A stretch of 64,000 nt of DNA, taken from the NCBI RefSeq assembly GCF_001570565.1, contig NZ_BBXE01000028.1, positions 1 through 64,000 on the forward strand. Reading direction: 5' to 3'. Each line of letters starts with the position of its first letter. Positions within the stretch are counted from its first letter, which is position 1. The position numbers and the translations under genes are program-made. Under the pieces are notes generated by a model. The model was not told where the DNA came from, searched no databases, and saw nothing but the letters and a program-made list of their open reading frames with translations. This DNA comes from Herbidospora yilanensis. GTDB lineage: Bacteria > Actinomycetota > Actinomycetes > Streptosporangiales > Streptosporangiaceae. Positions 11,103-59,638 of the stretch are shown piece after piece.

Positions 11103-13970
11103 TCACCGGAGAAGGCTCGTCGACCCGGTCGGCGGGATTTTCTTGGTCTTCAACGCAAAAGTCATGACTTCCTGGAAAACGGGCGCGGCAATCGTACCGC
11201 CGTAATGGTCTTTTTTCGGGTCCTGAATGACGGCCAGGGCCATCAGGCGGGGCGCTTCGGCGGGGGTGAAGCCGACGAAGGTCGCCGTATAACCGCAGTA
11301 TCCGCCACATTTCTGGTCATAGCGCATGGCGGTTCCGGTCTTGCCCGCCACCCGATAGCCCTCGATGGCGGCGGCGCCACCGGTTCCGTCGGCTCCGGCG
11401 ACCGCCTTCTCGAGCATGCCGGCGAGCTGGCGGGCGGTCAGCTCGCTGATCACCCGGGTCTGCTTCGGCGCGGCGGCCGGGACCAGGTGGCCCTTCTCGT
11501 CGGTGGTGCCCGCGACGATCGAGGGGGTCAGCCGCACGCCGCCGTTGGCGATGGTCTGGTAGACGCTGGCCATCTGGAGGGCGGTGACGGAGATGCCCTG
11601 GCCGTACATGATGGTGCAGCGCTGGGAGCCGCTCCAGTCCTGCCAGTCGGGCAGCAGGCCGGCCTCCTCGCTCGGGATGCTCCCGCCGCTCTTGGCGCCG
11701 AAGCCGAAGGCCGTGAACATGTTGTGCAGCCGCTGATCGGTGATCTTGGTGCCCGCCATGATCGTGCCGACGTTGCTCGACTCCTCGAGGATCTGGGCGA
11801 AGGTCATCTGCTCGGTCGGGTGGGGGTGGGCGTCGCGCAGCACCTTGTCGGCGCACTGGATGTTGTCGGGCACCGTGAACAGCGTCGACGGCGCGACCAC
11901 GCCCGCCTCCAGCGCGGCGGCGGCGGTGATGACCTTGTTGGTGGAGCCCGGCTCGAACACCTCGGCGGCGGCCTTGTTGCCCCGGTCTTCGGCGCGGGTG
12001 GCCTGCCAGTTCCGCAGGTCGACCTCGGGCGCGTTGGCCATGGCGAGGATCTGCCCGGTCTTGACGTCCATGACGATGACGCTGCCGCTGCGCGCCCCGA
12101 CCGCCTTGACCTGCTTGGCGATCGCCTCGTAGGCGGCCCACTGGATGTAGCGGTCGATCGTCAGCCGCAGGTCGCGGCCCGGCACCGGCGCCACGCGGGT
12201 GCTGCGCGTCATCGGGATGCGCTCGCCGCCCCGCCCGATCTCGATGCTCTGCTGGCCGTCCTGACCCGCGAGCGTCTTGTTGTACGCCTGCTCCAGCCCC
12301 TCCAGCCCGAACCCGTCGTCGCCGACGAACCCGACCAGCCCGCCGGCCAGCGTGCCGCCGGGATAGAGCCGCCGGTACGTGGGCTTGGAGCCCACCCCGC
12401 GGAAACCCATGCCCATGATCTTGCGGGCGACCAGCGGGTCGACGTCGCGGGCGACGACCAGGTAGCGCTTGTCGACCTGGGCGAGCTTGGCGGCGATGCC
12501 CTCCTTGGGCTTGCCGAGCTCGGCCGAGAGCGTGGTGGCGATCAGCTCCCGCTGGGTCTCCTTGACCTCCTTGGGGTCGAGGTAGATCTCCCGCGCGTCG
12601 GCCGTGACGGCCAGCTCGTTGCCGTTGACGTCGGTGATCGACCCCCGCTTGGCCGGCAGGACCTCGGGCGTGACCCGCTGGTCGGCGGCCTTGGCCTGGA
12701 ACGTCTTGGAGTTCAGCCCCTGAAGCTGCACCAGCCGCCCGGCGAACAGCGACAACACCACGGCCATGGCCATCAGCGCGATGTTGATCCGCCGCCGCGG
12801 ACTCCCCAGCCGCAACACGGCGGGCCTCGGCGGCGGCCCCGGACGGCGCGGCGGCCCCCCGGGCCCGGCGGGACTCCGGCGCGGCGGCCCGTCACCGTCC
12901 CGCCCCCGGACCGGCCGCTCCCCCGGCCGCAGAGGCCGGACCGGCCTTTCTCCGGGGCGCACCGGCCTCCCCGCCCCGTCCCGCCCGCGAGCACCCTCAC
13001 GAAGCGGCCCGTCGGCCGGGCGGCCACCCTCACGAAGCGACCCGCCGGAGGTGCGTCCGCCGCGAAGCGGCCCGTCGGCCGTGCGGCCGCCGTCACGGGA
13101 AGGTCCGTCACCGGCCCGCCCGCCCGCGCGGGAACGCCCGTCGGCGGAGCGCACGTCATCCCTGGTATCCCTGGAATCCCTGGACCGGCCTTCGCCGTCG
13201 CGTGCCCGCCCGGCGCCGTCACGGCTCCGGCCGTCGTCGCGAAGGACGGAGTCACCGCCGCGCCCGCCGTCACCGGCAGACCCTCTGTCGCGGGAACGCG
13301 CGCCGCCGTCACCGGCCCGCCCACCATCACGAGAACGCGGGCCACCGTCAGCAGCCCGGCCGACATCACGCGAACGCGGGCCGCCATCAGCAGCCCGCCC
13401 ACCATCACGGAAACGCGCGCCGCCATCAGCAGCCCGTCCACCATCACGTGAACGCGGCCCACCGTCAGCAGCCCGCCCACCATCACGCGAACGCGGGCCG
13501 CCGTCAGCAGCCCGCCCGCCGTCACGGGAGCGTGCGCCACCATCAACAGCCCGCGCACCATCACGCGAACGAGAGCCACCGTCAGCAGCCCGCCCGCCGT
13601 CACGCGAACGCGGGCCACCATCGGCAACCGGCCCGCCGTTACGCGAACGCGGGCCACCATCAGCAGTGCGCCCGCCGTCGCGGGAGCGTGCGCCGCCCTC
13701 GGCGGGGCGGCGGTTGTCGCGGGAGGTCTCAGGCCGGTCGTCGTCGTGGCGGCGTGGATCGTCGGCCGGACGGCCCTTGCGGGGGCCGCCCGGTTCGGTG
13801 TCGGCCTCGCGGGAGCGTCCGGCGTCGTCGGGGCGACGGGGGCGGCCCGGTCCGTCGGCGCGGCCCGGGTGGGAGCCCGAGCCCGAGGCGCGGCGGCCGT
13901 CGCGTGGGCCCCGGTCGCCGGGGCCACCCGGCCGGCCCGGGGACGGTGGGCGGCCGCCGCCACTGCTCAC
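11103..13970 (-). CDS. ftsI: Septal class B penicillin-binding protein FtsI with giant disordered N-terminal extension
   Basis: FtsI is the septal transpeptidase that cross-links peptidoglycan with FtsW. The start is a GTG at 13970 that overlaps the stop of the preceding ftsL-like gene (GTGA), which gives 955 residues against roughly 550-650 in most homologues. Residues 1 to about 390 are Arg/Gly/Asp/Pro-rich with no hydrophobic segment; residues 92-234 are eleven 13-residue repeats of the RSRDGGRAADGG type. A single membrane helix (about 394-415, IALMAMAVVLSLFAGRLVQL) is followed by the dimerisation domain and the transpeptidase domain. The active-site triads are intact: STNK with Ser near 676, SSN in EESSNVGT, and KTG in VAGKTGTAM. 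The extension must be cytoplasmic. Its coding status is supported by the open frame, the coupled start and in-frame repeat units; its function is unknown. Confidence 0.93.
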   Translation of the reverse strand: MSSGGGRPPSPGRPGGPGDRGPRDGRRASGSGSHPGRADGPGRPRRPDDAGRSREADTEPGGPRKGRPADDPRRHDDDRPETSRDNRRPAEGGARSRDGGRTADGGPRSRNGGPVADGGPRSRDGGRAADGGSRSRDGARAVDGGARSRDGGRAADGGPRSRDGGRAADGGPRSRDGGRAADGGARFRDGGRAADGGPRSRDVGRAADGGPRSRDGGRAGDGGARSRDRGSAGDGGRGGDSVLRDDGRSRDGAGRARDGEGRSRDSRDTRDDVRSADGRSRAGGRAGDGPSRDGGRTADGPLRGGRTSGGSLREGGRPADGPLREGARGRDGAGRPVRPGERPVRPLRPGERPVRGRDGDGPPRRSPAGPGGPPRRPGPPPRPAVLRLGSPRRRINIALMAMAVVLSLFAGRLVQLQGLNSKTFQAKAADQRVTPEVLPAKRGSITDVNGNELAVTADAREIYLDPKEVKETQRELIATTLSAELGKPKEGIAAKLAQVDKRYLVVARDVDPLVARKIMGMGFRGVGSKPTYRRLYPGGTLAGGLVGFVGDDGFGLEGLEQAYNKTLAGQDGQQSIEIGRGGERIPMTRSTRVAPVPGRDLRLTIDRYIQWAAYEAIAKQVKAVGARSGSVIVMDVKTGQILAMANAPEVDLRNWQATRAEDRGNKAAAEVFEPGSTNKVITAAAALEAGVVAPSTLFTVPDNIQCADKVLRDAHPHPTEQMTFAQILEESSNVGTIMAGTKITDQRLHNMFTAFGFGAKSGGSIPSEEAGLLPDWQDWSGSQRCTIMYGQGISVTALQMASVYQTIANGGVRLTPSIVAGTTDEKGHLVPAAAPKQTRVISELTARQLAGMLEKAVAGADGTGGAAAIEGYRVAGKTGTAMRYDQKCGGYCGYTATFVGFTPAEAPRLMALAVIQDPKKDHYGGTIAAPVFQEVMTFALKTKKIPPTGSTSLLR
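13269..13697 (-). repeat. Eleven-copy 39-bp in-frame minisatellite in ftsI
   Basis: Eleven tandem units of 39 bases encode 13 residues each, consensus G-G-[PA]-R-S-R-D-G-G-R-A-A-D. Unit variants include RSRNGGPVAD, RSRDGARAVD, RFRDGGRAAD, RSRDVGRAAD and RSRDRGSAGD. Every unit length is an exact multiple of three and no unit breaks the frame, so changes in copy number would lengthen or shorten FtsI without disrupting it. Confidence 0.92.
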
Positions 13971-14497
13971 TGCGCGCTGCTCCCCGTCTCCGATGCGTCC
14001 GCCGCGCCGCCGGGCTCGGTGCGGCCCGACGTGGTGGGCCCGGCGTCGTCGGCCGCCGGCGTGTGGCCGCCGCCGACCCACTTGGGGGCCGACTGGTCGG
14101 GTGAGACGCCGTGCTGGACGGCGCCCTTGGCGACCGCGTCGGGCTGGCGGGCGTCGCGGATGCGGCCCTTCTCGGCCTCGGCCTGCTGGCGGAGCTGCTC
14201 GTTGACGCGGCGCAGCTCGTTGTGCTTGAACGAGTCCTGCGCCAGGACCGTGTTGAGCAGGAGCAGGCTGACGAGACCGCCGCCGAGCAGGCCGACGACG
14301 AGCATGACGAAGGGCGCCCTCGGCGGGCGCCGCCGTTCGGACGGCGGTTGCGGCGCACGGCGGGCGACCGGCGTCTCGGGCCGCTCGACCGGGCGGGCGT
14401 GGGTCACGGGACCGCGCGGACGACGGCGGACGTCGGGCTTGGCGCCGGGCTTCACGCCGGTCTTCGGGTCTTTCAGTGGGCTCATCGTTGGCCTCAT
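13967..14497 (-). CDS. ftsL: FtsL-like bitopic divisome protein
   Basis: This 176-residue protein lies where ftsL is found in dcw clusters, between rsmH and ftsI. The first ~60 residues are cytoplasmic and rich in Arg and Pro ([17 protein letters not shown]). One membrane helix spans about residues 62-86 ([18 protein letters not shown]) and is followed by a short heptad-like segment ([20 protein letters not shown]), the layout of FtsL, which pairs with FtsB/DivIC and FtsQ outside the membrane. The C-terminal ~50 residues are low in complexity (Gly, Ala, Thr). Sequence conservation in FtsL is poor, so the call rests on topology and position. Starts ATGA on the rsmH stop; a second ATG lies 12 bases in. 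Confidence 0.82.
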
Positions 14498-59177: not shown

Positions 59178-59410
59178 AGAGAAACCCTACCGACCCCTCT
59201 CCCGCCAATCGGCGCACCCCACCGGGAGCACAGCCCGAACAAGAATCTTCTTCTATTCCGTTACGGCTCCGCCCACCCGACACCACCCGCCGCACACGGC
59301 CCCCACCGCCGTCTCCGCCAACCACCGCACAACAACCCACCGCAACGAACAGACGGGCAACCAAGCCGACACCCCAGCCTCCCCCGCCCCCTCACCCAAG
59401 TCGCGCCCCC

Positions 59411-59496
59411 CGCCAAAGAGTCGCGCGAGCCGCCAAAGAGTTGCGCGAGCCGCCAAAGAGTTGCGCGAGCCGCCAAAGAGTTGCGCGAGCCGCCAA
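59411..59496. repeat. 20-bp tandem repeat, four copies plus a partial
   Basis: The unit CGCCAAAGAGTYGCGCGAGC is repeated at 59,411, 59,431, 59,451 and 59,471, with a partial fifth copy at 59,491. Only one base varies (C or T at position 12). The unit length is not a multiple of three, so it is unlikely to be coding. Confidence 0.9.
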
Positions 59497-59512
59497 GAAG
59501 AAGAGAGCGCCC

Positions 59513-59638
59513 GAGGCAGAGAGAGTGGCTGAGGCAGAGAGAGTGGCCGAGGCAGAGAGAGTGCCCGAGGCCAGGAGAGTGCCCGAGGCCAGGAGAGTGC
59601 CCGAGGCCAGGAGAGTGCCCGAGGCGAAGAAGAGAGCA
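59513..59638. repeat. 18-bp purine-rich tandem repeat, six copies, flanked by a 21-bp direct repeat
   Basis: Six units of 18 bases start at 59,513: three of GAGGCAGAGAGAGTGSCY type, then three identical GAGGCCAGGAGAGTGCCC. The array is bracketed by GAAGAAGAGAGCRCCYGAGG-type copies at 59,497 and 59,626 (19 of 21 bases identical). The plus strand is mostly purine throughout, giving a long G/A tract. Confidence 0.88.

Follow-up and report, generated by a model that had tools for sequence, protein, structure and literature searches.

A long basic cytoplasmic tail on FtsI in a Streptosporangiaceae clade: conserved ends and a middle apparently grown from in-frame tandem repeats

What might close to 400 cytoplasmic residues be doing on a septal transpeptidase? 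In Escherichia coli the cytoplasmic part of FtsI is a short stub, and work on the recruitment of septal penicillin-binding proteins (PBPs) has mostly concerned their transmembrane and periplasmic parts. The ftsI gene of Herbidospora yilanensis, a soil member of the Streptosporangiaceae, encodes 955 amino acids on the minus strand at positions 11103–13970 of the window analyzed here (the whole 64,000-nucleotide stretch of contig NZ_BBXE01000028.1), and it places residues 1–396 (12783–13970, minus strand) ahead of the hydrophobic helix as an N-terminal cytoplasmic tail. Set beside its relatives, this tail appears to follow a three-part architecture common to a large Streptosporangiaceae clade: a GR..GR.G head, a variable middle, and a Pro/Arg juxtamembrane box. 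With its conserved ends and recurrently repeat-grown middle, it looks more like an adjustable tether than like an isolated curiosity. More specifically, the tail may be a basic and disordered tether, its conserved ends making the contacts and its repeat-grown middle giving elasticity; we regard this reading as about evenly balanced.

The clade was taken as all loci with a core identity of 58% or more within Streptosporangiaceae, which gives 58 loci from 21 genera, 51 of them with delimited tails. Core searches matched 100 of 120 genomes of the family (E ≤ 1e-120) and 293 of 296 genomes of the class (E ≤ 1e-60). Loci were picked by hand from the match lists, favoring high scores, and tails were sought in 137 of them by pairing the ftsL stop with the open-frame start codon closest to it, allowing offsets of −25 to +60. 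The strongest conservation in the clade tails lies in the first ~15–30 and last ~20 residues and not in the middle; the initial annotation drew no attention to these ends. Among 34 aligned clade proteins, the columns at least 90% conserved up to residue 386 are 1, 6, 7, 12, 13, 15, 22, 377, 380, 382, 383, and 386, with residue 30 added in one of two analyses; in five alignments of shuffled tails, the conserved columns beyond residue 1 are only stray prolines.

The conserved head spans residues 1–70 (13761–13970, minus strand) and has the core motif GGRPPSPGRPG, for which the common family form is GGR.PGPGRGG. Counted alignment-free, a double-GR head (G-R/K at residues 4–8 and, a little further along, another [GA]R[GP]) occurs in 48 of the 51 tails; over 1,000 shuffles the average is 1.4 and the highest count six. 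GPGRGG occurs 28 times in these tails (1.7 after shuffling) and PPRPP 62 times (2.7 after shuffling). At the other end, a Pro/Arg-rich juxtamembrane segment (residues 346–396; 12783–12935, minus strand) closes with the conserved box PPRPAVLRLGSPRRRIN. The head occurs once in its own genome (search at E ≤ 0.01), and with no other match at that threshold the idea that it is shared with a second protein of the same genome was rejected.

Between these ends, length is variable. Tails to the helix measure 396 (window), 370, 311, 284, 233, and 215 residues in Herbidospora, while the core DNA is 93%–98% identical to that of the window; hence the tail evolves in length far more quickly than the enzyme does in sequence. 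In the six genomes that show them, the first ~70 residues are near-identical; the middle differs, and the last ~50 residues are conserved. The frames stay open throughout, so the suggestion that the tail could change length without loss of frame holds. Across the clade, tails range from 109 to 422 residues (median 246, n = 51). The coupled start is found in 16 of 35 loci in the rest of the family, with a median tail of 96, and in 22 of 44 loci from other actinomycete families, with a median of 75.5 (19–284); these lengths use loci with a 4-nt overlap alone (13/35 and 12/44 loci, respectively, were not delimited), and because the loci were hand-picked the medians do not describe a random sample. 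The ~390-residue extension proposed in the initial annotation is thus confirmed; its description as far longer than normal is right beside other families and wrong within the clade, where the window tail is near the top of the range and not otherwise exceptional. Four loci in other actinomycete families (L136, L141, L149, and L164) have FtsI tails of 218–284 residues, apparently of independent origin.

Some loci stand outside these counts. Seven of the 58 clade loci were not delimited: L010 and L056 lie at contig ends, and L042, L088, L091, L096, and L101 failed the ftsL criterion, although in all five the head is present and the frame is open through it. A further 18 named loci (L016–L033) are outside the 51. 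Thirteen of these look like duplicates, with a matching contig or tail; L028 and L031 break off within the tail; and three more species, L024, L029, and L032, have coupled, open tails of 155, 342, and 325 residues. The tail of H. galbida is cut by a contig end and is absent from the head counts. Because the contigs of H. galbida (L016) and two Microbispora (L028 and L031) terminate inside the FtsI tail, the array may be lost or wrongly reported in draft assemblies. Two Streptosporangiaceae genomes (G022 and G098) each have two strong FtsI matches.

In the window, the middle of the tail is dominated by eleven in-frame 13-residue units with consensus SRDGGRAADGGPR (13257–13685, minus strand), as first noted from the letters. 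Their Tandem Repeats Finder (TRF) score of 543 is the highest of any tandem repeat in the 64 kb, the next separate array scoring 172, and when 51 such tails were codon-shuffled 50 times, no score rose above 111. The Arg codons of the units are specific to position (CGT at positions 2 and 13 in 9/11 units each, CGG at position 6 in 8/11), which points to an origin by duplication. The units differ by ~23% in DNA (486 differences over 55 pairs of 39 nt), so the array is old and not recently slipped. The term minisatellite therefore fits its probable origin and does not fit if recent slippage is meant. No copies of the array were found elsewhere in its own genome at E ≤ 0.001. It is rich in codons ending in T, which these genes otherwise seldom use (G+C content at third codon positions, GC3, of 0.55 versus 0.98 downstream). 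A second, weaker repeat region, with units of 30–33 and 63 bp, lies at 12975–13124 (minus strand).

Such arrays recur throughout the clade. Arrays with a TRF score of at least 60 are found in 46/51 tails as compared to 5.9 after codon shuffling, and arrays scoring at least 100 in 30/51 as compared to 0.16; no tandem arrays were found in the 38 FtsI cores checked (those with at least 1,500 bases). At the higher threshold, the tails stand out from the ftsL segments just upstream (30/51 versus 2/49). Periods divisible by three account for 89 of the 93 best non-overlapping arrays, versus 170 of 342 shuffle matches (overlapping ones included). Arrays scoring at least 100 occur in 15 of the 21 genera and their unit sequences differ, seemingly unrelated between genera by eye: SRDGGRAADGGPR in Herbidospora, and elsewhere RPSRPESSGRSP-like, PGAQGR, RDGTRARGDGT, and PGAPGK. 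Hence, the middle of the tail appears to have grown repeatedly from different, lineage-specific in-frame tandem repeats. GC3 is lower in the tail than in its own core in all 51 cases (medians 0.83 versus 0.97) and is 0.75 in the 30 arrays.

Is the tail translated from the upstream GTG? Substitutions per 1,000 codon pairs among Herbidospora (seven species, six for the head) number 53, 33, and 218 at codon positions one, two, and three of the head; 162, 169, and 551 in the array; 78, 76, and 281 in the juxtamembrane segment; and 31, 30, and 127 in the next 200 residues of the core. Aligning on protein, as was done here, favors position three, but the ungapped comparison of the 11 units is free of that bias and gives 81, 94, and 311 differences. 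The third-position excess indicates that the tail is read as protein and that its amino acids are under constraint, which is strongest in the head; on these patterns the array, too, is translated and under protein-level constraint. The start is shared as well: all 51 delimited clade tails begin at a 4-nt overlap with ftsL (48 GTG, 3 ATG), bearing out the GTG start initially assigned. With this coupled start and a third-position excess in head, array, juxtamembrane segment, and ungapped units, we reject a wrong-frame or untranslated reading. Stops and frameshifts were sought in relatives and none were found: the 51 delimited tails are open, five of the seven others are open through the head, and two are cut by contigs. 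Delimiting itself demands an open frame.

The gene itself is readily placed. The window carries the dcw cluster on its minus strand, in the order mraZ, rsmH, ftsL, ftsI, and then the Mur ligases, so that ftsI sits between ftsL and murE. Its frame opens with GTG AGC AGT and runs uninterrupted from 13970 to 11103; the GTG overlaps the TGA stop of ftsL as GTGA, and GGGGAG, a Shine-Dalgarno-like stretch by its sequence, lies 9 nt upstream (13980–13985, minus strand). The upstream gene (13967–14497, minus strand) matches NCBIfam FtsL_Actino at 62.5 bits (cut-off 55) and has an Arg/Pro-rich cytoplasmic tail before its helix, as the initial annotation had recognized for this FtsL-like protein. In FtsI a single N-terminal hydrophobic helix starts at about residue 391–397 and spans about 391–416. 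It is followed by Pfam matches to the PBP dimerisation domain (residues 438–585, 52.3 bits) and Transpeptidase (629–936, 242.7 bits). S676-T-N-K679, S731-S-N733, and K877-T-G879, which we take to be the SxxK, SxN, and KTG motifs, are invariant among the 34 aligned relatives. The closest solved structures are of PbpB/FtsI and align only from about residue 403–434 onward. On its transpeptidase domain, dimerisation domain and helix, and dcw position, the product is a septal class B PBP (FtsI/PbpB).

Two other regions of the window bear on repeats and contig ends. At 59410–59625 there are adjacent minisatellites, one of 20 bp × 4.3, a period that three does not divide, and one of 18 bp × 6.9, inside a 674-residue frame that has no Pfam match at E ≤ 0.001 and is probably not a gene. 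At positions 1–1085 the contig begins inside the FtsZ C-terminal linker, and 6/7 Herbidospora genomes break in the same linker. In H. mongoliensis, where the contig is continuous, this linker is GC-rich with no evident tandem array by eye. We therefore reject the idea that the contigs end there because the linker is repetitive, and consider sequencing drop-out likelier.

What, then, would such a tail do? The window tail is genuine and basic and, judged by its composition, probably intrinsically disordered: it is about 390–396 residues long, with 25% Gly, 23% Arg, 15% Asp/Glu, a net charge of +34, and a single aromatic residue (0.25%). All 51 clade tails have net charges between +18 and +44, with a median of ~0.3% aromatics. 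High positive charge, hydrophilicity, and near-absence of aromatics also mark nFtsK, the N-terminal extension of mycobacterial FtsK. That segment (net +23 in M. smegmatis, disordered) is described as binding cardiolipin and phosphatidic acid and not DNA, and as confining FtsK at the septum (PMC13277299). By analogy, the tail would be expected to keep FtsI close to the septum, its ends making weak electrostatic contacts. A conserved basic distal peptide, an elastic middle, and a basic membrane-proximal box are the pattern expected of a tether. The conserved ends would weakly and reversibly contact acidic septal surfaces (anionic lipids and/or acidic sites on the divisome scaffold) and so confine or pre-position FtsI near the septum; the repeats in the middle would set reach and not specificity.

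Several observations weigh against this tether reading. The AlphaFold model has no predicted secondary structure at residues 1–390 but is of low confidence (mean predicted local distance difference test score, pLDDT, 52.5; predicted template modeling score 0.44), and because the whole model is poor the low pLDDT of the tail is weak evidence of disorder. Net charge climbs with tail length (Spearman 0.89), the middle adding about +0.10 per residue and thus more than neutral length; a constant total charge with a neutral spacer was rejected on the same figure. The ftsL segments carry arrays scoring at least 60 in 14/49 cases, so weak repeats are partly a general feature of these genomes. The tail of L101, one of the undelimited loci, would be only ~94 residues. 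Finally, the head is GGRPPSPGRPG in Herbidospora and GGR.PGPGRGG or similar in most other genera, and 3/51 tails are without the double GR as defined, and these differences make a single docking pocket less than certain. In a more pointed version of the tether, the tail would act as a fishing line: its short N-terminal GR..GR.G peptide, previously undescribed, would dock FtsI on a divisome hub or the septal membrane, and lineages would repeatedly adjust the reach through gain and loss of in-frame repeats. We hold that version only tentatively. If it were true, the reach of a septal transpeptidase would be a trait evolving by minisatellite change.

The alternative that survives best is that the middle is merely tolerated: a permissive disordered linker that lengthens as in-frame repeats expand through replication slippage and drift. 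Only hydrophilicity and positive charge would be selected for, and length would have no specific function. The fast change of length within one genus (215–396 residues at 93%–98% core DNA identity) and the variation of units by genus favor it. The GC3 dip of the tail fits relaxed codon selection, and the weak arrays in the adjoining ftsL segments accord with it as well. It does not account for the strong constraint on the head and juxtamembrane box or for the third-position bias retained inside the array, and the shortest of the 51 delimited tails still has 109 residues, though L101 softens this last point. Overall we think it unlikely, if worth keeping in mind.

Alternatively, the Arg/Asp array itself could be the functional element, as was initially proposed: a multivalent polyampholyte, tuned by copy number, that would have FtsZ, nucleic acid, or divisome proteins as its partners or would form condensates. 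Eleven units under protein-level constraint, and the recurrence of arrays in many genera, would fit selection for iterated basic/Gly/Pro units. Yet alignment of relatives shows that the extension and both its ends are kept while the array sequence is not: units differ between genera, and the 13-residue array is almost wholly missing from the tails of H. mongoliensis (233 residues) and H. cretacea (215 residues), which speaks against this array as the key binder. Nor are its expected motifs enriched over composition. RGG occurs 110 times in the 51 tails versus 142.5 after shuffling and GRG 133 versus 142, and the window has two RGG versus 5.7 shuffled; the tail was accordingly not taken for an RGG-box nucleic-acid binder. 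The closest tested precedent, nFtsK, is described as being without DNA binding (PMC13277299). We judge a functional array improbable.

Equally improbable, in our estimate, is docking on an adaptor, in which tail arginines would sit in the groove of a DivIVA domain in the manner of GpsB clients and bring FtsI to septa or new poles. The best-scoring of the five DivIVA proteins in the genome keeps Tyr22, Asp28, and Asp32 when aligned with the solved Wag31/GpsB N-terminal domains; these we infer to be the equivalents of Tyr25, Asp31, and Asp35 of Bacillus subtilis GpsB, and the tyrosine/aspartate dyad is reported to be kept in the actinobacterial homologues (PMC6335420). A Wag31–FtsI interaction under oxidative stress, cited in PMC9878328, is in favor; the mycobacterial two-hybrid of the same report did not confirm it. 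Moreover, the SRxxR(R/K) motif is not enriched (three in 51 tails versus 9.5 shuffled, one in the window versus 0.5 expected), so the tail was rejected as a GpsB-client mini-domain, and the published motif is helical and membrane-near, whereas the FtsI tail has no predicted helix in its low-confidence model.

A second product, in which an internal GTG at residue 385 (12816–12818, minus strand; ~ten codons before the helix) additionally yields a short, conventional FtsI, is very improbable: a start-type codon stands at this position in 40/58 clade members, GTG makes up 31 of the 41 Val codons there, and in the window, G006, and H. galbida it is preceded, at 6 nt, by GAGG, but 18/58 have a non-start codon at the exact position (L040 and L096 have a start-type codon adjacent), the purine-rich upstream stretch is missing in most members, and the conserved head and frame would be left unexplained. 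A start only at the membrane helix was rejected, given those 18 loci and the lack of a Shine-Dalgarno-like stretch in most.

Taken together, the observation reported in the initial annotation is confirmed and its interpretation partly supported. In a large clade of multicellular actinomycetes, the septal synthase carries as many as ~420 cytoplasmic residues. The tail lengths form a natural series, both inside a single genus and over 21 genera, in which to study how a cytoplasmic tether might control septation. The tails are also a clean example, in a core division gene, of a region, presumably disordered, whose evolution proceeds through the expansion of repeats constrained to stay in frame.

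Among the matches listed in a search of the open-access literature, which mostly leaves subscription journals outside, no title or abstract dealt with the FtsI tail of Streptosporangiaceae. Comparison with known systems nevertheless helps to place it. The FtsZ C-terminal linker is a disordered segment that is likewise variable and ends in a conserved peptide; being on another protein, C-terminal, and without a basic head, it is a design analogy only. FtsI/PbpB (PBP3) of other actinobacteria is the same enzyme in the same dcw position, with a basic, Pro/Arg-rich cytoplasmic domain (net +12 to +52 for the 26 tails of at least 40 residues outside Streptosporangiaceae), but the clade tails are about three to five times longer and have the conserved distal head and tandem arrays. 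In Firmicutes, the GpsB-binding PBP mini-domains are also Arg-containing cytoplasmic segments that serve as docking sites; they are described as short and helical with SRxxR(R/K) (PMC6335420), in contrast to the FtsI tail, where neither motif enrichment nor a predicted helix is seen. Extended disordered cytoplasmic termini are reported for mycobacterial FtsQ, FtsB, and FtsL, although these N-termini are shorter (about 50–95 residues) and are described as predicted models (PMC9846249). The closest tested counterpart is nFtsK: it too is a long, Arg-rich, basic N-terminal cytoplasmic extension of an actinomycete divisome membrane protein, it is disordered as the FtsI tail is presumed to be, and its length varies between species (PMC13277299). 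It differs in being carried by a DNA translocase and not a septal transpeptidase, and in measuring 95–121 residues in the species quoted there, versus 109–422 for FtsI; tandem arrays are not mentioned in the available text of that report, and the function of nFtsK has been tested, whereas the FtsI tail is known from sequence. The FtsI tail would thus join a known class, the basic disordered extensions on actinomycete divisome proteins.

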